Shown: piece by piece, positions 29,790-42,387 of the stretch
How positions within the stretch are numbered: position 1 is the stretch's first letter
Layout: each line of letters starts with the position of its first letter
Source: Candidatus Peregrinibacteria bacterium
Lineage (GTDB): Bacteria; Patescibacteriota; Gracilibacteria; UBA1369; JABINC01
NCBI GenBank assembly: GCA_030700255.1
Contig: JAUYJN010000040.1
Span: forward strand, 1-51,367
Length of the DNA: 51,367 bases
Direction: 5' to 3'
The notes under the pieces: model-generated
What the model saw: the letters and a program-made list of their open reading frames with translations, nothing else
The model's database searches: none
What the model was told of the DNA's origin: nothing
Translations under genes and position numbers: made by a program

Positions 29790-30821
29790 CTAAGGGAGTT
29801 GCGGAACCATACACATAGCTGCGGCATGCACGTAGCCCTCACCTTTGTTTTGGGCATAAGATTTACAACCATTATTATCATTTGTAGAAGTGCCTCGGAA
29901 GCTTGAAAAGCCTAGATATTCAGGGGAAATTTCAACCGTAGATGTTACGTCACCATAACAAGAAATTCGCACACTACCATTTGGGCAAGTTGCAGTTGCT
30001 TGGGTGAGGCCGGGTGCTGATGTTGTTAATACAGGGGTGCTGTTTCTAACAGTAAATATCATTTTATTCAGATTGTTTTGCAAAAAATTAGTAGCGGCAG
30101 ATGTCGTGATTTGGGCGTTCTCATACAGATTTGCATCCAGTACGAATTTGTCCACAGTTAAGGTGTCCTCAACTGTTAAGGATCCGAGAAAATCAACAGG
30201 GCCTTCGAATTCAGTTGTTCCATCAGTTGAAGTTACAGTTGAAGTTATCCGCCCATCGATTGTAACATTGGCAAGATGTGACTCGGCAGCATCAGCATAT
30301 ATCCCATATAAATTCCCTGTATCAATTGGAGTGTATTTTGGTATAGCATTTGGATCAGGAGGAGGTGATGATATACTCGCGATCGGTTCAAGATAACCAA
30401 GTATACCTCTACCAACGCCTTGAGATGGTGTAATGACTTGTCCGATAACACCGGTACGACCATATTTATTTGCTGCATTTTGTTTATTCTCTCCAAGTAC
30501 GCCAACGTTTTTACCTGTTACTATAGTACCGGCTTTATTAGAATTAATACTTACCGCGTACAGAGAGCCGGTAGGGGATAGAGAATCCATATAATTTAGC
30601 CCCCAAAAATCGAAAGAAAAATTATCTCCAAAAATTGTCATACCTATGTTATCAAGCCCCGCTCGTCCAATCACAAGAGATTTGAAGTTAGGAGTTTCTG
30701 TGGTTGGAGTAGCGCCGAAGGCGATAAATGAAGAAATACCTACAATAAGGATTATTCCACATATGAAAAGTATGAGATTTATAATTGTTTTTGAGATTTG
30801 TGTTTTCTGAATTTTTGGCAT
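29790..30821 (-). CDS. Secreted protein, tandem paralog 3 of 3
   Basis: 343 residues. N-terminal hydrophobic segment (IILILFICGIILIVGISSF-like, about 12-33) acting as signal or anchor, then a beta-rich body with YGRTGVIGQV and GRGILGYLEP, then LYGIYADAAES, a strand-repeat region (DGRITSTVTSTDGTTEF), and a C-terminal four-cysteine domain ending GCKSYAQNKGEG...C. The same order of motifs occurs in the next two genes, so all three arose by duplication. It probably sits on the cell surface. Function unknown. Confidence 0.8.
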   Translation of the reverse strand: MPKIQKTQISKTIINLILFICGIILIVGISSFIAFGATPTTETPNFKSLVIGRAGLDNIGMTIFGDNFSFDFWGLNYMDSLSPTGSLYAVSINSNKAGTIVTGKNVGVLGENKQNAANKYGRTGVIGQVITPSQGVGRGILGYLEPIASISSPPPDPNAIPKYTPIDTGNLYGIYADAAESHLANVTIDGRITSTVTSTDGTTEFEGPVDFLGSLTVEDTLTVDKFVLDANLYENAQITTSAATNFLQNNLNKMIFTVRNSTPVLTTSAPGLTQATATCPNGSVRISCYGDVTSTVEISPEYLGFSSFRGTSTNDNNGCKSYAQNKGEGYVHAAAMCMVPQLP

Positions 30822-30836
30822 TGATTTAAGTTAAAT

Positions 30837-31910
30837 TTATTCCGGCCTCCAACAAAATGCATAAGCACTTAGGGAGCCAGGTACAATCGGGCCGGGTGGT
30901 CTTCTTGCGTAAGATTTACAACCCCTGTCTGAGATTTGTTCTTCTCCTAGGTATGGAGCACTGGAGACGGTAGGATTAGGTGTGATTACGGCTCCTCCAC
31001 ATCCGAGCCGTATAGATGGCGTAGGGTTTAGTGGGCAATAAATTATAGCTGAGATAATTTGTAAATCAGGGCGTTGGTTTCCATTTGGATATGTTTGAAG
31101 CATTGATAGAGCCGGATCACTAGTTTGTAAAAAAAATTGTTCCGATAAATCACCTGTAGCTGAAAAATTATCTGCAAATACATCATCCAAGACAAGGTCT
31201 CCATTATTCATCTGTACAACAGGGTCACTTACGGGCCCACTCAAATCAGCAAATGTTATTGGCTCATTTCTTGAGGTTATGTTACCTGTGATTTCAACAT
31301 CATCTTTGAATTTAGATTTATTCTCAGTATAAAAAGCCCATGGAATACCTTTTGAAATACGAATAAAGTCATCGAATAATGAATTGTTTGGGCTATTTGG
31401 CAATGTCGAGAAATTTATATCATTTTCAACGGTTGGATTGAGCGATGGGTCGTATTCAAGGTATCCTGCGAATCCACGTGCCGTGCCTGTACCACCTGTT
31501 GCTTGAGTTGCCGTGACTCTACCTTCTACTCCGACCCTTCCAAATAGCCCCTCGCCTTGGGTTGGGCTAGCTTTTAGTCCCATATAATTCCCTAGGGTAT
31601 ACAGACCTGCATTTGCTGAATTTATATCGAAGCCAAAACGGAGTGGTAGCAAATTACCATTTTCATCGGTTGTAAAAGGATCTGGTAAATCGCTGTTGAA
31701 TAGAGTCTGCCCTATTGAGTTTATATATAGATCACCATCTACATCATCCATATCGTACCCAATTTTGAAAGCTGGGAAATTCACTACTGTGGTATTGGCG
31801 GATGGAGGGTTAAGTGCAAATGGAGCAACCGCTATTGCAAAGGCAGCTCCACCAAGTATCCCGGAAATAATCAGGAATAAGTTAACGCTTTTTGAAAAAG
31901 TTTTTTTCAT
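30837..31910 (-). CDS. Secreted protein, tandem paralog 2 of 3
   Basis: 357 residues with an N-terminal signal/anchor (LFLIISGILGGAAFAIAVA), FGRVGVEGRVTATQ, RGFAGYLEYDPS, PWAFYTENKS followed by FKDDVEITGNITS, and the C-terminal cysteine domain CPLNP...LGCGGAV...GCKSYARR...FCW. Compared with its neighbours the cysteine domain is the best conserved part. Spacing of 15 bases on each side indicates one transcript with the flanking paralogs. Confidence 0.8.
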   Translation of the reverse strand: MKKTFSKSVNLFLIISGILGGAAFAIAVAPFALNPPSANTTVVNFPAFKIGYDMDDVDGDLYINSIGQTLFNSDLPDPFTTDENGNLLPLRFGFDINSANAGLYTLGNYMGLKASPTQGEGLFGRVGVEGRVTATQATGGTGTARGFAGYLEYDPSLNPTVENDINFSTLPNSPNNSLFDDFIRISKGIPWAFYTENKSKFKDDVEITGNITSRNEPITFADLSGPVSDPVVQMNNGDLVLDDVFADNFSATGDLSEQFFLQTSDPALSMLQTYPNGNQRPDLQIISAIIYCPLNPTPSIRLGCGGAVITPNPTVSSAPYLGEEQISDRGCKSYARRPPGPIVPGSLSAYAFCWRPE

Positions 31911-31925
31911 AAGGTACTATGAGGT

Positions 31926-32915
31926 TTAATTTAGATTAAAACAATAAGGTACAGAATATAGTGTGAAATCAGATGCTCCAGGAGGAACGGAGGCATAGGA
32001 TGTGCATGAACCACCTTTGAGATTTGAAGAAGGTACGGCTCCACGGTAAGGGGCATAAGAGTTAGCTCCGGTAACGTATCCGGAGCAGCCGACTAAATAC
32101 GCATTAGGAGCGCAGGAGCGAGTAGCATTGAAGATATCAAAATCAGCATAACTTGAGCTACTAGCATTGTCTAAAACGATTGCATCCGGATCTCCGATTA
32201 AAAGACGATTATCCAGATTATCTATATTTGAGAAATTCAACACATCAGTTTCAAGATTCCCATTTACATTCATATTTCCGGAGACAGTCGCGTCAGCAGC
32301 GATCGTTACAGCAGAGGTGCCATTTTTTATATCACCATCAATTGTAACCGTATCACCGAGGTATGTATTACCGGTAGTATAAAATGCATATGGCGTCATT
32401 GGAACGTTAGCGGGTAGTGGCTCGTATTCTTGAAACACCCCTGGCGTTGCGGCATGCTGGATATACCCAACAAATCCTTTCATTATACTCGGAGCCCCTG
32501 TTTGATTGCCTATTATTACTCGACCTTCAACACCGACCCTTCCGTATTGATCCGGGTTTTTTGGTATGATATTTACGTCGTTGATACCGGCGACAGGGTT
32601 ATATGGTGCAGATACATGGAGCCCACCTTTGCTTGAACCTATATTGAGTCCATATTGAGGGTCGTTATAAGAATCGGTTAATGTCCCGGTATGGATATCC
32701 ATCTTCCCATCATTATCAATACTCACTCCATTGTTATCAGAATCAGTAGCTCCTCCGGCTATATCTAAACTGTGTACGGTAGGGGAGATCGCATCGCCAC
32801 TAAGGGGTGGAGGTAAAGCGACCGCAAACACGAACTGTGCCAAGAAAATCAAAAAGAAACCACATACGAAAGATAGGTAGGTGATGATGTATTTATTCTT
32901 TGGGATTTTTAGCAT
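31926..32915 (-). CDS. Secreted protein, tandem paralog 1 of 3
   Basis: 329 residues. Signal/anchor YLSFVCGFFLIFLAQFVFAVA, then YGRVGVEGRVIIGN, KGFVGYIQHA, PYAFYTTGNTYLGDTVTIDG and a C-terminal domain C...VGCSGYV...SCTSYAS...YC with four cysteines that could form two disulfides. It is the first of the three after the PKD/SLH gene and is probably expressed with it. Confidence 0.8.
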   Translation of the reverse strand: MLKIPKNKYIITYLSFVCGFFLIFLAQFVFAVALPPPLSGDAISPTVHSLDIAGGATDSDNNGVSIDNDGKMDIHTGTLTDSYNDPQYGLNIGSSKGGLHVSAPYNPVAGINDVNIIPKNPDQYGRVGVEGRVIIGNQTGAPSIMKGFVGYIQHAATPGVFQEYEPLPANVPMTPYAFYTTGNTYLGDTVTIDGDIKNGTSAVTIAADATVSGNMNVNGNLETDVLNFSNIDNLDNRLLIGDPDAIVLDNASSSSYADFDIFNATRSCAPNAYLVGCSGYVTGANSYAPYRGAVPSSNLKGGSCTSYASVPPGASDFTLYSVPYCFNLN

Positions 32916-32996: not shown

Positions 32997-34544
32997 TTAA
33001 TTCGTTTTGTTCAATTCTCCAACTTGATATAACATTTTTGAGATTTCACCAAATGTAATTGGGTCATGTGGACCGAAGTACCCGGTGTCATATCCGCTAA
33101 CCAGTTCGTTTACAGTACCGGTATCTACATATTGAAAAAACCATTCACTCTTTGGGACGTCCGGGTAAAATTGAAAACCTCCACGAAGGATATGAACGTT
33201 GAATGCTCGGAGTATCATAGCCAGAGTTTCACTGCGACTTATAGATGAGTCAGGGTGGAACGATCCGTCCGGATAGCCTTCAACTATGCCAAGTTCCTCC
33301 GCTTCAAGAATATATTTATAGTTTGGGTTAGAGCTTCCAACGTCTGAAAATCTTGGTTCATATCTTATTGTAAATACATTAACTCCAAGTTTTTTTAGAA
33401 TCATTTTGATAACTTCGCCTCGGGAAACAGGTTTGTCCGGATTAAAATCATTATCATATCTGGTAGCTATGATACCGGCATCATTAAGCATTTTGAGATA
33501 CGGCGAAGCCCAGTGCAATTCGATGTAAGCGATAGCAGTCCCGATCCGGCCATCTTTATCACGTACATCCATGCGGATTTTTTGAGTCCCGGTTCTTTGG
33601 TCCGGATGATTGAACTTGAGAAATTTCCTATACCCTATGCGTGCGAAACCGGAATCATATATTATATCATCCGGCCCGTTGTAATCTGTATCCCATCTAA
33701 ATTCCAAGCTATTGAATTCGGTTTCATCATCAAAACTTTTTTCTCCGGAGAAACGGAACATAGTATCAAATGTCCCAATTTTCGGTTCTATATCGAGTAC
33801 CGCAACAGGGATAGTGTTTTCTAGGATTTCAAGATTTCTAGTAAATTCACTTCTTTCATTGTTTGGATCTTTTACTTGCAATGTTATTTTTTGCATACCT
33901 TTGACTCCATATCCATAAGTGTAAGAGGCGAAGGTGCGGCTAGACCAATCTGTATCGTATACCTTGTCTCCGTTGAAGTCCCAGCGATATTGAAGTCTTT
34001 GTGATTTGTATTGATCATCAAATGATTCATTGGCATTGAATCTGAATATTTGTGCAGGAGAACCTTTATCGGGATCCATAGTAAAAAACGCAGTCGGCTT
34101 TGTATTGCGAACGATTTTTATAGTTTTAACCGTATGGTCAAATTGCCCAGACCCATCTTTTACCGCTAATTTTACGTCAAAAGTTCCCATATCCCAAAAT
34201 ACTTTACTTATGGTTGGTTCAGTTAAAAACCCGGTATCATAGTTTCCGTCACCATTAAAATCCCACCTATATAATAGGGCTGTTTTTTCAGGGTCTCTTG
34301 AGGTTCTGGCATCAAAGAAAAATTCCGTACCTATTATACCTTCGGCTATTTGCCCCATACCTACATTTGTTTTTACAATAAATTTAGCTTCAGGCGGAAA
34401 ATTTGTAGGGTCATCATTTACATTTGGAGTGTATGTTCCCTGCGCTAAAGCATTTTGACTAAACATCAAAGCCACTGTCAGCACTGACATAGATGCCGTG
34501 GCAGCCAAACCAACCCTAAATAAATCTTTGAAAATAGCCTTCAT
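32997..34544 (-). CDS. Secreted PKD-repeat and SLH-domain surface protein
   Basis: About 515 residues. Signal peptide ending ALAQ-G, then PKD-like beta-sandwich repeats (motifs RDPEKTALLYRWDFNGDGNY, LQYRWDFNGDKVYDTDW and a third with LEFRWDTDYNGPDD), and three C-terminal SLH motifs (NDFNPDKPVSRGEVIKM, YPDGSFHPDSSISRSETLAM, YFGPHDPITFGEISKM). SLH domains bind secondary cell-wall polymers, PKD repeats act as extracellular spacers or adhesins. It heads a leftward surface cassette. I start at MKAIFKDLF; the longer frame adds nine residues before the charged start. Confidence 0.9.
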   Translation of the reverse strand: MKAIFKDLFRVGLAATASMSVLTVALMFSQNALAQGTYTPNVNDDPTNFPPEAKFIVKTNVGMGQIAEGIIGTEFFFDARTSRDPEKTALLYRWDFNGDGNYDTGFLTEPTISKVFWDMGTFDVKLAVKDGSGQFDHTVKTIKIVRNTKPTAFFTMDPDKGSPAQIFRFNANESFDDQYKSQRLQYRWDFNGDKVYDTDWSSRTFASYTYGYGVKGMQKITLQVKDPNNERSEFTRNLEILENTIPVAVLDIEPKIGTFDTMFRFSGEKSFDDETEFNSLEFRWDTDYNGPDDIIYDSGFARIGYRKFLKFNHPDQRTGTQKIRMDVRDKDGRIGTAIAYIELHWASPYLKMLNDAGIIATRYDNDFNPDKPVSRGEVIKMILKKLGVNVFTIRYEPRFSDVGSSNPNYKYILEAEELGIVEGYPDGSFHPDSSISRSETLAMILRAFNVHILRGGFQFYPDVPKSEWFFQYVDTGTVNELVSGYDTGYFGPHDPITFGEISKMLYQVGELNKTN

Positions 34545-34583
34545 GTTTTTTGTATTTATTTTCGCTACCAAATATACACTAAT

Positions 34584-36181: not shown

Positions 36182-36442
36182 ATGGATGCGGAAAATGATA
36201 GACCGGTTGATCGAAAACGTACTGAGGATGAAATAGAAGTTAGAGTGAAAGATGGTGATATGCATTTTGGAGGAAGTCCATATAGAGGTAAGGTTGAGCA
36301 AAAATTAAGAGGCTTCGAACTTACTTTATCGGACGTTGAGGATCATTTAAGTCGTATTGGTGAATTAGCTCATTCAGAACGTGCAAGAACTGTGCGAGTT
36401 AGGATAGCAGATGTATTGGCAGGTAAAGAGCAGGCTGCTTAA
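36182..36442 (+). CDS. Small hypothetical protein, 86 residues
   Basis: Acidic start (MDAENDRPVDRKRTED), a strand-like segment (EIEVRVKDGDMHFGG) and an amphipathic C-terminal helical part (LTLSDVEDHLSRIGELAHSE). No family recognised. It begins downstream of a good -35/-10 pair and overlaps the convergent gene by four bases. Codon pattern looks coding, but homologs would be needed to confirm. Confidence 0.5.
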   Translation: MDAENDRPVDRKRTEDEIEVRVKDGDMHFGGSPYRGKVEQKLRGFELTLSDVEDHLSRIGELAHSERARTVRVRIADVLAGKEQAA

Positions 36443-38292
36443 TTATTACTTTCGGTGTTTTCAGAAGACACATTTATAGCTTCGCCTTGGATTACTTCTA
36501 TTTTAATGTTCTCTGGGACAGCTGGTAGGTTAGGGGCCCAGCTTGGCCATGTACTTATGTTCACTTTGTTTATCTCCGGGAGATTTTGGATGTAGTCAGC
36601 GGCTTCTTTTTTACTTTTGCCGATGACATGTTCTTTTATTTTTTTAATAAGCCTTTGTCCGGTTTCACTGTCCGGATTGATGTCGAATTCTTCGATGCCT
36701 TTTATTGAGGCGGTTATTTTTATAATTCCGGTTTGCTTGTCTATATCAGCTATGTCATAAGCAAATGATTGATCATATATATATACGAGTCGTTTATCAG
36801 GGCTTTTGTGAGTCTGTAAATCTTGACGAAGGATGTTCATTACTTCATTGAAATTGTATGCGATTCCGGTGACTTTGACCTCTCCTGATACGTCAAATTC
36901 TTGCAATTCTTTATCGATGAGGTCAGGTGCGACGGTGTATTTGGGTTCTGAGAAGGTTAGTACAAATGAATCCTCCATTAATTTTAAATTGGTGTTTTTG
37001 AGACTGTTATCCATCTCGATTTTATCTCGTAGCGCACTGACAGCATCAGATTTCATGACTTCCAATAACTTTTCTTTTGAGGCACTTATGTCTTCCTTCA
37101 CCACTCGTGGTGAACTTATGCTTTCTCCACCTGTAAAGTTGAATTTACTCTCTCCATAAAGTAGATTTTGACTTTCTTTGGAAAGGCCCGGTACGAAAAA
37201 ATGAGAAGGTCCTATATTACCTTTGTCACCTATAACTTGTCCGTAGGCATCTTCAATATCAGCAACGACACTTACAGCGAGTTCTCCCGGTACGCTGTCT
37301 GCATAAGCACTTCTATTCTCGCGTATCTTCGGAATCTCTCTGCTAGCTGGGATTATGGCATCCGTTTTTATACGGAATACGAGGCCATCCTCTGTTTGGA
37401 ATCGAGTATCTTTTACGAGTGGCCAGTTGTGATTACTTTTATTGATTATAGTTATTTCCCCGGAAGAATTTGATCCTTCAAAAAGGTGTCCTGTAGAACT
37501 ATATTGTATTGTTTTATTGATTGTTTCTTCTACTTTGTAGGTTTCTATAATATTGCCTGGAGAGGTGCTAAATAACCGAGGGTTACGTGTTTTGTCTGCA
37601 AGAGTTATATTTACACTTCTCTGTAGAGTGTTTGGGCTTGTTGTGAGCTCGATCAGAGCTCCGGGCAAAGCAAAATAGGCGATCAAGGTAAAGAGTCCAA
37701 TACTTGCTATGATCAATGTTGAGAATGCTCGCTTGCTCGGTGTAACGAATACTAGTTTCCTGTCATTTTGTTTCCCGATTTTTTCTGTGATCTTAGTTAT
37801 ATTTGTCAAAAGGTCGAACTTGCTACTTGCATTGTCGCGGGTTTTTTTAACGATTTCTATTATAGATAATTTTTTTAGTCTGCGCCGTTTTGGGTCATCA
37901 TCTAGCTTTTCATTGCTTAGCGCCACCATTGGTTCGTGGACGTTTGTTTTAGTTTTTTGGGTTTGCGTACCTATAAGGTCAGCATCAAGAGAGTCAAAGC
38001 TTTTTATCTCGGCTTGGGCGGCAAGTTTCAATCCAACTGTATCTTTGGTTACGATAAAGAGCTCCTTATCAATATCAACAAGTTTTTTATTTATTATTTT
38101 TAAATTAACAATACTATGAAAAAGTGCGGCCCGTTTTGGTACAACTAAGTATATTTTTTTATTTGGTAGATTTTTGACGCAGTCAAAAATCGTAGTTATT
38201 TCATCATCGATTTCTATATAAACTATCTTTTTTTTTATGGGTGGTCGAACTTTATGGCCACTGCTTATTGGCTTTTCCTCTTCGTTGGTCAT
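36439..38292 (-). CDS. Membrane protein, family sometimes annotated baseplate J-like
   Basis: 617 residues. A cytoplasmic N-terminal domain (KKIVYIEIDDEITTIFDCV, IYLVVPKRAALFHS) precedes a transmembrane helix (about 205-225), and a long extracytoplasmic beta-rich region follows with YKVEETINKTIQYSSTG and DTRFQTEDGLVFRI, the pattern that gives baseplate-J-like hits in CPR genomes. There is no phage context. It lies eight bases after the FtsA/PilM-like gene, so the two probably work together at the membrane. Function unknown. Confidence 0.65.
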   Translation of the reverse strand: MTNEEEKPISSGHKVRPPIKKKIVYIEIDDEITTIFDCVKNLPNKKIYLVVPKRAALFHSIVNLKIINKKLVDIDKELFIVTKDTVGLKLAAQAEIKSFDSLDADLIGTQTQKTKTNVHEPMVALSNEKLDDDPKRRRLKKLSIIEIVKKTRDNASSKFDLLTNITKITEKIGKQNDRKLVFVTPSKRAFSTLIIASIGLFTLIAYFALPGALIELTTSPNTLQRSVNITLADKTRNPRLFSTSPGNIIETYKVEETINKTIQYSSTGHLFEGSNSSGEITIINKSNHNWPLVKDTRFQTEDGLVFRIKTDAIIPASREIPKIRENRSAYADSVPGELAVSVVADIEDAYGQVIGDKGNIGPSHFFVPGLSKESQNLLYGESKFNFTGGESISSPRVVKEDISASKEKLLEVMKSDAVSALRDKIEMDNSLKNTNLKLMEDSFVLTFSEPKYTVAPDLIDKELQEFDVSGEVKVTGIAYNFNEVMNILRQDLQTHKSPDKRLVYIYDQSFAYDIADIDKQTGIIKITASIKGIEEFDINPDSETGQRLIKKIKEHVIGKSKKEAADYIQNLPEINKVNISTWPSWAPNLPAVPENIKIEVIQGEAINVSSENTESNN

Positions 38293-38300
38293 TTTTTTTG

Positions 38301-39548
38301 TTAACTTGTAATCCTTACTACTTTTCGTAGTAAGCTTGATAATACTTTTTCTTCTCCGGTGTATTCTATTCCAAGGTGGGCAAGTGCCATTGGAGTTATA
38401 TCCTGCTGGTCTACTATTTTACCGGTATCATCAGTTAATGAAGTTATATATTTGGGCTTCATGAAGCTTATCTGTGGCTTGCGAGCAAATGGTAACTTTT
38501 TATGCCAGTCACGTGATTCAAGGGCTTCTTTGATTTCCGGAAGTTTAGAGCCACCACCTGAAAGCAATATTCTAGATGGGAAAGTTTCGATATTTTCAAA
38601 TTCACTTAGTGTGAGTAAAACTCCGGCAAGCCATACTTCGCTGTCGCTCCGCATGGCCTCTCGCACAATCTTACTGGATTGTTGTTCGAGCTGCTCCTCT
38701 GAATAGGCGATTTTTATATCTTCGGCTTCATCAAAAGATATGTTCAATTCTTGACTTAATCTTTTGGTAAAACTCCTTCCGCCAAGGCTAAACATCTTTG
38801 TTCCTTCGAGACTGCCATCTGCAACGATTGCAATATCCGTAGTGCCACCTCCGATATCTATAAATATAGTGCTCATATGTCCGCCATCTTCATTTGGTAT
38901 GGATCGTGAGATTGCATATGGCTCAGAAGTTATTGCAAGTAGCTCCATATCTAGTTCGGCAGCTATGGTTTGCAAAGCACCATAATGAATTAATGGTGAA
39001 AATGCATTAAATACATTCATAGTTATTTCCTTCCCTTCAAACCCTATTGGGTTTGAGACTTTGTATCCGTCTATGCGGACATCAACGATTGCCGCATTTA
39101 CGAGTTTGACATCTATCTCATTGTAACCGGTTTCATATGCGAGTTCTTCACGAGCTTTGTCGTAGGCTTTCCACTGTACTTTGTGTACGATATTTTTTAG
39201 CTCATCTATATTTATCTTTGTTTCCGGTGATTTGCGGATGTAGGTGATTTTTGTTGTGATACCTTTGACAAGTTCGCCGGCAACGCCAAGTATCAATTGG
39301 CCCGGCATAACGTCAGCAATTCTTTCCGCATTTTTGATAGCGGTATTACAATTTTTAATAACAGCAGCTATGTCGGTAATAGCGCCACTTTGCATGTCGC
39401 CCAATTTTTGACGACATTTACCAATTCCTATTATTTTACCTTTGTTGCCATCGGTCTCATATATCAAAGCTTTTACGGATTCTGTCCCGATATCTAGGGC
39501 GAGTACATGATATTTTTCCGAGCGATTTTTCTTAAAAAGATTAAGCAT
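38301..39548 (-). CDS. FtsA/PilM-type actin-like ATPase
   Basis: About 415 residues of the actin/Hsp70 ATPase fold: phosphate-1 DIGTESVKALIYE, an inserted SHS2-like domain (SPETKINIDELKNIV ...), phosphate-2 FIDIGGGTTDIAIV and adenosine motif ILLSGGGSKLPEI. The family includes cell-division FtsA and type IV pilus PilM, and sequence alone does not decide between them. No ftsZ or pilN/pilO homologs are adjacent; the neighbours are an unusual anchored protein and a lipoprotein. The ATG at 39548 is preferred: the longer frame would overlap the lipoprotein gene. Confidence 0.85.
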   Translation of the reverse strand: MLNLFKKNRSEKYHVLALDIGTESVKALIYETDGNKGKIIGIGKCRQKLGDMQSGAITDIAAVIKNCNTAIKNAERIADVMPGQLILGVAGELVKGITTKITYIRKSPETKINIDELKNIVHKVQWKAYDKAREELAYETGYNEIDVKLVNAAIVDVRIDGYKVSNPIGFEGKEITMNVFNAFSPLIHYGALQTIAAELDMELLAITSEPYAISRSIPNEDGGHMSTIFIDIGGGTTDIAIVADGSLEGTKMFSLGGRSFTKRLSQELNISFDEAEDIKIAYSEEQLEQQSSKIVREAMRSDSEVWLAGVLLTLSEFENIETFPSRILLSGGGSKLPEIKEALESRDWHKKLPFARKPQISFMKPKYITSLTDDTGKIVDQQDITPMALAHLGIEYTGEEKVLSSLLRKVVRITS

Positions 39549-39591
39549 GGGGGTGTTGAAGGTAATATTGAATAGGCTCCAAGGGGACTTT

Positions 39592-40173
39592 TTATGAAGT
39601 TGGTACAACTTCAGTTTCACTTTCTGCCTCTGTAGCTGTCTCTGCCTCTACTTCTACTTCTTCCGGCTCATAGGTTCTTATGTATTCAACTGACTCAATA
39701 CACGTTTGTTTAAATTCTTCATTCTCGGTAATTTGTTCACAAATGCTATTGTCTAGGCTTGCTACGGCAACTTTTCTGAAACAAAATTCTTTATCTTTGC
39801 TGCGCGCTATCTCCGAGCAAATCTCTGCATCCTTATTTTTCTCGGCTAGATTTGATAAACATATATATGTCTCAATTTCATTCTCATTATCAAAACATAG
39901 GTCCTTGTGATCAAATTTCACAGCGACGTTCCGTATGCATGTATTACGAACTCCATTTTCTATCTTGTCACATGTTTTTAGTGCCGATTTCTCAGTTTCT
40001 TTTTCAAGAGCGATTTGCATCACGCAACTCCCTTGGGTTAGTGCGCTTTGATAATCTGTATTGCAGGCTTCGATTCTTGCGTTGTCAGTGCCACATGCAG
40101 ACAAAATAAGTGTGGTTACGATAATAAGTGGTAGGATGTAAACGGACATCGAATACTTTTTCATCTTTTTCAA
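39592..40173 (-). CDS. Lipoprotein with repeated Cys motifs
   Basis: 193 residues. Signal sequence with lipobox LILSAC-G, so Cys about 27 is lipidated. The mature part repeats a unit of roughly 30 residues of the form C-x-x-I/V...C-x-x-x-V-A (for example DLCFDNENEIETYICLSNLA, AEICSEIARSKDKEFCFRKV, SICEQITENEEFKQTC), giving paired cysteines that may form disulfides or bind a metal. The C-terminus is Glu/Thr-rich and flexible. One unit recurs in the lipoprotein at 28.9 kb. Function unknown. Confidence 0.75.
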   Translation of the reverse strand: MKKMKKYSMSVYILPLIIVTTLILSACGTDNARIEACNTDYQSALTQGSCVMQIALEKETEKSALKTCDKIENGVRNTCIRNVAVKFDHKDLCFDNENEIETYICLSNLAEKNKDAEICSEIARSKDKEFCFRKVAVASLDNSICEQITENEEFKQTCIESVEYIRTYEPEEVEVEAETATEAESETEVVPTS

Positions 40174-41334: not shown

Positions 41335-42387
41335 ATGAACCAATTCAAAACAATTTTTCAAAAACAAAATGAAACACAAACATCTAAAGAGCAAATCAAC
41401 ACTCTGCATCTCGAATTCCAAACATACGGTCTCAATGCGAAAGAATGGATACAAAAATGTAAGATGTTACTTCCAAAAATTCAACAACAAGAAGTGTGGC
41501 GAGCCAAGGGATTTGCAAATATTTATGAATATGCGCGCGTGTTTGCTGGTATGAGCACGTATGCGGTCGATGATGCTCTTTGGATTATGAAAAAGCTTGA
41601 TAACAGGCCGATGTTGCAAAAAATTGCGCAGCAAAAAGGGATAAATGCAGTGCGTCCGGTGCTGACAATCGTGACCGAAGAAAGTGAAAAGTTTTGGGCG
41701 ACCAAGACGATGACCATGAGTAAAAACACTTTGGAAACATACGTAAAAGAATACAAAGGTGAAGTGCGGAATATTCCTGTAGAATCAGCTGTGGATAACG
41801 GAAAAGAAACCATGAAGTTAGAAAATGAACCACCGCAGGAATCTTGTACTAGTACGAGTCAGAGTCCTAAAAACCGCATAACAAAGTCAATTTATATGAA
41901 ATTAAATGTGAAAACGATTGAGAGATTGAAAAAAATAAAAGGTGAGAAGGAGTGGGATGAATTTCTAAATTACATGTTGGACTCTGTGGAAAAAGGTCAG
42001 AGTGATGGGGGTTGTGCAAATTTGGATAAGCTTGCGAATCAAGCGTTTGAAGAGCCAAAACCTGAGCCCGTAAATACCGGAAAACGTTATATTCCTGCGA
42101 AGATTAAGAAATATGTTGTTGCAAAAACAAGTGGGCATTGCGCATATCCGGGATGTAGCAAGCCATATGAAATTTTGCATCACACCGAGCGCTTCGCGCT
42201 CGATGGAGCTCATGACCCAGATACCTTAGTGCCACTTTGTAAATCGCATGAACGGCTTGCGCATGCGGGACTAATCGAAGGTGAAGAAGGTGGTGTAATA
42301 AATTGGTGTGTCAGGCTAAATGAGGAGACAAAAAATGCAAAGTACAAAATCGATAAAAAAGTGAATCTGTACTATGTTAGAAAGTAA
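41335..42387 (+). CDS. HNH nuclease-domain protein, copy 2
   Basis: 350 residues, homologous throughout to the copy at 5.5-6.5 kb: helical N-terminal domain (QEVWRAKGFANIYEYARVF), variable linker (about 150-185), second helical part, and C-terminal HNH domain with CAYPGC, ILHHTERFAL, HDPDTLVPLCKSHERLAHAG. The linker DNA (41841-41863) carries a gtactagtac palindrome that matches an intergenic repeat at 21.2 kb. A short Lys-rich tail follows the domain. Target and role unknown. Confidence 0.8.
   Translation: MNQFKTIFQKQNETQTSKEQINTLHLEFQTYGLNAKEWIQKCKMLLPKIQQQEVWRAKGFANIYEYARVFAGMSTYAVDDALWIMKKLDNRPMLQKIAQQKGINAVRPVLTIVTEESEKFWATKTMTMSKNTLETYVKEYKGEVRNIPVESAVDNGKETMKLENEPPQESCTSTSQSPKNRITKSIYMKLNVKTIERLKKIKGEKEWDEFLNYMLDSVEKGQSDGGCANLDKLANQAFEEPKPEPVNTGKRYIPAKIKKYVVAKTSGHCAYPGCSKPYEILHHTERFALDGAHDPDTLVPLCKSHERLAHAGLIEGEEGGVINWCVRLNEETKNAKYKIDKKVNLYYVRK

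Follow-up and report, generated by a model that had tools for sequence, protein, structure and literature searches.

A conserved gene pair of Patescibacteria encoding an actin-like ATPase and a bitopic partner protein

The window, meaning the whole stretch of DNA analysed here (51,367 nucleotides), is a 51-kb contig within a 1.37-Mb genome of a Candidatus Peregrinibacteria bacterium. The minus strand harbors a gene for an actin-like ATPase of the FtsA/PilM superfamily, followed by a gene for a 617-residue protein with a single predicted transmembrane (TM) helix, referred to as the partner. A gene for a cysteine-rich lipoprotein precedes both. The genes and their features are as follows.

38301..39548, minus strand: actin-like ATPase of the FtsA/PilM superfamily, 415 aa from the ATG at 39548; the open reading frame (ORF) is open to a GTG at 39620
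38307..38348, minus strand: predicted C-terminal amphipathic helix of the ATPase, KVLSSLLRKVVRIT, an FtsA-like membrane-targeting sequence with the strongest 14-residue hydrophobic moment in the protein
36439..38292, minus strand: partner, bitopic, 617 aa
37972..38235, minus strand: cytosolic N-domain of the partner, alpha/beta, about residues 20-107 (predicted model)
37672..37728, minus strand: putative TM helix of the partner, about residues 189-207 (helix in the model; TM helix in homologues by hydrophobicity scan)
37123..37473, minus strand: beta barrel of the baseplate-J/GlxA type in the partner ectodomain, residues 274-390 (structure comparison of the predicted model)
36466..37098, minus strand: long helix and C-terminal alpha/beta region of the partner, residues 399-609 (predicted model)
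39592..40173, minus strand: Cys-repeat lipoprotein, a neighbour and not a conserved part (lipobox, cysteines, homologue search)

The initial annotation had given the three ORFs spacings of 8 and 43 bases, and its coordinates and spacings are exact to the base; all three lie on the minus strand. The ATPase stop is separated from the partner ATG by 8 bases (38292 to 38301), and 43 bases lie between the end of the lipoprotein ORF at 39592 and the ATG at 39548. This ATG, and not the upstream GTG at 39620, is the most likely ATPase start; L036, an orthologue from the same genus, begins at the equivalent residue.

The adjacency of ATPase and partner, on which the initial annotation had made its proposal depend, is conserved. 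The partner is present in 58 of the 59 genomes of the order, the present one included, and the arrangement at the locus is thus more than chance; an ATPase-like match is found in all 59, a count that includes FtsA. The pair is adjacent on the same strand with the ATPase first in 29 of 30 order loci, the remaining locus beginning at a contig end, and is arranged likewise in all 25 further order genomes (in G003 by a diverged pair), which brings the total with the pair present and adjacent to 54 of 59 genomes. The exceptions are G029, which has no partner match, G018, G027 and G054, which have no close ATPase match, and G038, in which the two genes lie on separate contigs.

Across 286 Patescibacteria genomes, the partner profile matches 256, a number that includes paralogues without the N-domain, while the ATPase profile matches 158 at 1e-20 and the N-domain profile 179 at 1e-3. 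The arrangement was followed in 75 phylum loci hand-chosen among the matches listed, usually one or two per family; 74 of the 158 genomes that the ATPase profile matches at 1e-20 are represented, as is G003 of the same order. The partner lies at most 700 nt downstream of the ATPase in 71 of the 75 loci, a count that considers all ORFs and uses ATPase and partner profiles built partly from the same loci. Two loci have it further downstream, at 935 and 1392 nt, and in two more, L106 (near a contig end) and L125, none was detected on the downstream side. An independent order-level profile detects the partner in 72 of the 75 loci, one of them (L125) on the opposite strand. The ORFs overlap or are separated by at most 60 nt in 61 of the 73 loci with a downstream partner. 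Outside the phylum, the partner profile matches one of 198 Actinomycetota-group genomes (G374, contig C154; L154, L155), in which the matches are possibly a patescibacterial contaminant, and none of three non-patescibacterial genomes of another set, one of which is shared with the 198. The ATPase and its bitopic partner are a real conserved two-gene unit across Patescibacteria.

The proposal that these genes form a small envelope machine is thereby supported for the ATPase and its partner and not for the lipoprotein. The lipoprotein carries 11 cysteines, with 9-17 residues in between, and a lipobox read by eye as LSAC. Its homologues occur in just 4 of the 59 order genomes and lie upstream of the ATPase in three of these (the present genome, same-genus G001, and G016 at 26% identity), and the lipoprotein is rejected as a component of the unit.

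The assignment of the ATPase to the FtsA/PilM superfamily holds, as the Pfam models FtsA (8.1e-21) and PilM_2 (7.8e-8) both match past their cut-offs. The PilM_2 score is 32.1 against a cut-off of 27 bits, which the canonical FtsA (28.8) and an MreB (33.3) pass as well. Assignment to a subfamily is less straightforward. The ATPase scores 126.6 bits against the NCBI ftsA equivalog model, under the cut-off of 175.85, compared with 389.8 for the genome's own FtsA. It scores 41.9 bits against the pilM subfamily model, under the cut-off of 133, which is a weak test because the genome's own PilM misses this cut-off too (49.3). All 24 aligned family members share, without exception, the key D, G and T residues of the motifs DIGT, DIGGGTTD and GGG. 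The Pfam sequence model SHS2_FTSA (PF02491) detects no such domain in the ATPase up to E 5, although a diverged 1C domain could escape it; the genome's canonical FtsA has the domain by Pfam. The hydrophobic moment of the C-terminal helix reaches the 98th percentile or more in 22 of 24 order-set ATPases, compared with 14 of 17 FtsA controls; the genome's own FtsA falls short of it at 0.87, and its PilM is at 0.55.

The genome encodes canonical ftsA separately, beside ftsZ on contig C44, and its PilM lies on contig C42, where T2SSF, T2SSE and N-methyl pilin-like genes join it in a cluster of pilus type. In a tree of 63 rows, which includes every second of 76 ATPase rows and omits one FtsA row with a wrong start (L207), the FtsA rows form a group of their own with support of 100/99 and the ATPase rows fall outside it. 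The lone PilM row is a very long branch, so that the tree does not establish whether the ATPase rows form a single clade. The ATPase is neither FtsA nor the pilus PilM: ftsA and ftsZ lie elsewhere in the genome, the ftsA cut-off is missed and no SHS2 domain is detected, and the genome's PilM sits elsewhere.

In contrast with the ATPase, the partner has no match in Pfam up to E 5, Baseplate_J (PF04865) included. Its 27 relatives show weak Pfam matches up to E 1, among them TaqI_C in seven (best E 0.002), the GlxA barrel in two (best E 0.0031) and Baseplate_J in one (E 0.11). A PDB sequence search up to E 10 gives phage Mu gp47 as the sole match, which is not significant (E 1.2). The partner structure is described from an AlphaFold2 model built from four sequences, with a mean predicted local distance difference test score (pLDDT) of 69. 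In the model, the N-domain (about residues 20-107) is of alpha/beta type and is joined by a linker of low confidence to a helix (residues 189-207), beyond which lies a folded exterior rich in beta structure. The helix coincides with the one hydrophobic stretch of the protein and is taken as a putative TM helix; the homologues also have a TM helix by hydrophobicity scan. The initial annotation had foreseen a cytosolic N-domain, a single TM helix and a beta-rich exterior, a layout that fits both the model and the one hydrophobic stretch.

In the predicted model, the closest structure match of residues 274-390 is GlxA (Z 13.6, 102 aligned residues, 2.0 A), and phage Mu gp47 also matches (Z 11.4, 86 aligned, 2.1 A). 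A Foldseek search likewise matches the barrel to phage baseplate-J proteins, and identities of the barrel to GlxA and the baseplate-J proteins are 6-23%. The modelled N-domain has a weak likeness to the STAS protein 2ka5 (Z 6.1, 88 aligned, 3.6 A). A profile comparison with 16 STAS proteins gives a probability of 0.64%, within the 0.16-1.88% of five controls, and the STAS identity is unproven. Pfam searches with 36 N-domain sequences yield scattered weak matches, none at a meaningful E-value, and searches of these sequences against PDB yield no match. The possibility of a PilN-like fold, which had been suggested for the 617-residue protein, finds no support: the cytosolic domain is about 90 residues long and a J-type barrel forms the first domain outside. 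The C-terminal region was compared with a view to the ferredoxin-like outer domain of PilN. When modelled alone, it is predicted more poorly than as part of the full-length protein, and this weak model (mean pLDDT 65) has no structure match with Z of at least 5.

The gene neighbourhood of the pair provides insights into its putative role. The order alaS–ATPase–partner–ruvX–mltG is frequent in the phylum loci. On the same strand, alaS lies upstream in 51 of the 75 loci, ruvX downstream in 48 and mltG in 41; a LysM gene is present in 14, an SLT gene upstream in 12, mreB downstream in 9 and mreC in 6. These labels are phmmer matches to references from three loci. Pfam confirms SLT, AlaRS, RuvX, YceG/MltG, MreB, MreC and a PBP dimerisation domain in locus L099 and LysM in L078, and in all 53 loci compared the alaS genes fit AlaRS more closely than ThrRS.

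A widely distributed and conserved pair, with a domain anatomy that is partly modelled and an ATPase and N-domain that co-occur and co-diverge, looks like an undescribed cell-envelope machine. The reading favored here, with a roughly even chance of being right, is a two-component transenvelope module typical of Patescibacteria, in which a relay like those of FtsA-FtsN and MreB-RodZ leads from the ATPase to peptidoglycan remodelling. It is favored because the parts of such a relay are present and because the neighbours encode lytic transglycosylases, RuvX and sometimes MreB and MreC. The FtsA-type ATPase would be anchored at the membrane via its C-terminal amphipathic helix, would probably form filaments and pass through an ATP cycle, and may dock onto the cytosolic N-domain of the partner. 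A signal would then pass via the one TM helix to the ectodomain, composed of the J-type barrel, the long helix and the alpha/beta part, which may act on the synthesis or cutting of peptidoglycan, most plausibly with MltG. Peptidoglycan is the putative target to which the gene neighbourhood, as the sole line of evidence, points.

The docking step is addressed by the co-divergence of the two proteins. Pairwise distances of the ATPase and the N-domain correlate with a rho of 0.85 over 67 loci (bootstrap 5-95%, 0.79-0.88), whereas the partner's own ectodomain gives 0.42, alaS 0.40 (53 loci), ruvX 0.46 (45 loci) and mltG 0.60 (40 loci). When the comparison is restricted to the 32 loci that have every gene, rho is 0.84 for the N-domain, 0.56 for the ectodomain, 0.31 for alaS, 0.33 for ruvX and 0.62 for mltG. 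These sequence distances suggest that the ATPase and the N-domain may bind directly.

Several observations weigh against the relay or its parts. The gap in co-divergence shrinks at the 45 closer loci (0.64 for the N-domain versus 0.59 for the ectodomain) and the ectodomain distances are noisy (split-half 0.43), so that support for direct binding is moderate. The co-occurrence that favors the relay, counted in the 286 genomes (ATPase and N-domain in 151, ATPase only in 7, N-domain only in 28, neither in 100), comes from a table that ignores shared ancestry and is biased towards agreement, because the N-domain profile was derived from ATPase-adjacent proteins and the limits differ (1e-3 versus 1e-20). 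Ten of the 28 genomes with the N-domain only were opened, and no ATPase was found in about 8-10 kb around the partner, which speaks against strict dependence. Six of these loci (L186-L189, L191, L194) have a PGI-like gene between alaS and the partner, Pfam-checked in L186. The C-terminal helix reaches the 98th percentile in only 44 of 76 phylum-set ATPases. No alaS, ruvX or mltG gene is seen around the pair in this window. Finally, alaS, ruvX and mltG form an old bacterial neighbourhood, and for that reason the pair may merely hitchhike there.

The gene of about 390 residues between alaS and the partner was considered as a diverged ATPase and rejected, being the PGI-like gene in the six loci. 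A different gene, of about 266 residues, occupies this position in L192 and L193.

One alternative is a second, specialised division system, in which an FtsA paralogue would bring to the septum a bitopic division protein that is specific to Patescibacteria. The Pfam FtsA match, the score against the ftsA model, the FtsA-like C-terminal helix and the coexistence of the ATPase with canonical FtsA are consistent with it. The missed ftsA cut-off, the SHS2_FTSA domain undetected in the ATPase and present in the genome's own FtsA, and the separate FtsA group in the tree argue the other way. In addition, the pair is not beside ftsZ in this genome, and phmmer searches with this genome's proteins find no FtsZ homologue in the 75 loci. 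A division role of this kind is unlikely.

An alignment complex of a type IV pilus or a type II secretion-like machine, in the manner of PilM-PilN, is quite unlikely. The ATPase passes the PilM_2 cut-off, and a short partner paralogue without the N-domain adjoins a T2SSE/PilB-like ATPase in four loci (L197, L200, L201, L202), which keeps this explanation alive. The genome's own PilM in its separate pilus cluster, the pilM score under its cut-off (a threshold that this PilM misses too), and the folded N-domain and J-type barrel of the partner count against it. The odds are lowered further because, in the same phmmer searches, none of the 75 pair loci yields a homologue of PilM, PilC or PilB; as a control, the PilB query finds PilB-like genes of four other genomes, while for PilM and PilC the query itself is the only positive control.

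The short paralogues, of about 380-415 residues, occur in their own gene context. In L197, L200 and L202, an ftsH-like gene, a gene for a protein with 4-5 TM helices and the T2SSE/PilB-like gene come in this sequence ahead of the short partner, and in L201 a gene for a 5TM protein and the T2SSE gene precede it. The gene thrS follows the paralogue in L197 and L202, and a thrS-like gene lies beside it in L196 and L198. T2SSE is Pfam-confirmed in L197, L200, L201 and L202, ftsH and thrS in L202 only and elsewhere by eye.

A phage tail or contractile injection device whose remnant now serves as a baseplate anchored in the membrane is highly improbable and phage origin of the partner is rejected: the barrel matches baseplate-J proteins and the non-significant Mu gp47 match is the only one in PDB by sequence, but the closest structure match is GlxA, which is no phage protein, Baseplate_J trails the GlxA barrel in the Pfam matches of the relatives, and no relative is confirmed in viral contigs or phage records, tail genes around the pair not having been searched for.

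A broader form of the favored relay is possible, if rather doubtful. The pair, an FtsA paralogue with a J-barrel partner, would then be one more actin-like system with a dedicated role, in addition to FtsA, MreB and PilM. It would couple ATP turnover on the inner side of the membrane to peptidoglycan remodelling outside, possibly via MltG, and as a phylum-wide inherited unit would help to build the ultra-small episymbiotic cell. Should the pair drive wall growth or a different process of the envelope, it would be a lineage-typical actin-like machine in a group with little-known cell biology, and one that is testable wherever a cultured Saccharibacterium carries the pair. A literature search found no published account of the ATPase and partner pair. 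In published work, 106 families are described as enriched in the Candidate Phyla Radiation, mostly poorly annotated and 76 of them with a TM helix (Meheust 2019, PMC6744442); the pair may belong to these families. Of 116 Patescibacteria-enriched genes, 73 are reported as essential in S. epibionticum (Wang 2023, PMC10633639), and the two pilus loci of TM7x that contain pilM genes hold pilM1 and pilM2 (PMC12206443). The terms FtsA, PilM, MltG and peptidoglycan are absent from the main text of PMC10633639.

Other genes of the window display features of their own. The protein at 32997-34571 (minus strand) contains PKD and three SLH (S-layer homology) stretches, and its gene adjoins a class II tRNA-synthetase-like gene (proS by eye). 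At 29790-32915 (minus strand) lie three tandem proteins of 343, 357 and 329 aa, alike by eye and with cysteines near the C-terminus; the one that was scanned has no Pfam match at 1e-5. A 350-aa protein at 41335-42387 (plus strand) is HNH-like by eye and has no Pfam match at 1e-5. Two proteins that start similarly lie near ftsAZ on contig C44 (L151).

The pair shares features with several known systems. The fold of residues 274-390 in the predicted model resembles those of the phage baseplate-J protein gp47 and of GlxA, whereas barrel identity is low, the partner is membrane-anchored and no phage relatives were found among the viral contigs and phage records. Similar to PilM-PilN and GspL, an FtsA/PilM-superfamily ATPase adjoins a single-pass protein; unlike in these systems, PilM is separate in the pilus cluster, and the 617-residue partner is larger and has a folded N-domain and a J-type barrel. 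MreB and RodZ form a comparable relay, composed, like the pair, of an actin-like protein and a single-pass partner with a cytosolic N-domain. The N-domain of the partner matches no Pfam family at a meaningful E-value, and MreB is a separate gene in the nine loci that have mreB downstream of the pair; RodZ has a helix-turn-helix. FtsA with its bitopic FtsN differs in that the ATPase of the pair falls in a separate tree group, misses the ftsA cut-off, has no detected SHS2 domain and is not with ftsZ, and in that the partner has no Pfam domain and bears a J-type barrel. Both systems have an actin-like ATPase with nucleotide motifs, a C-terminal amphipathic helix and a bitopic partner, and the FtsA-FtsN relay (PMC7613929) serves as a model for the pair.

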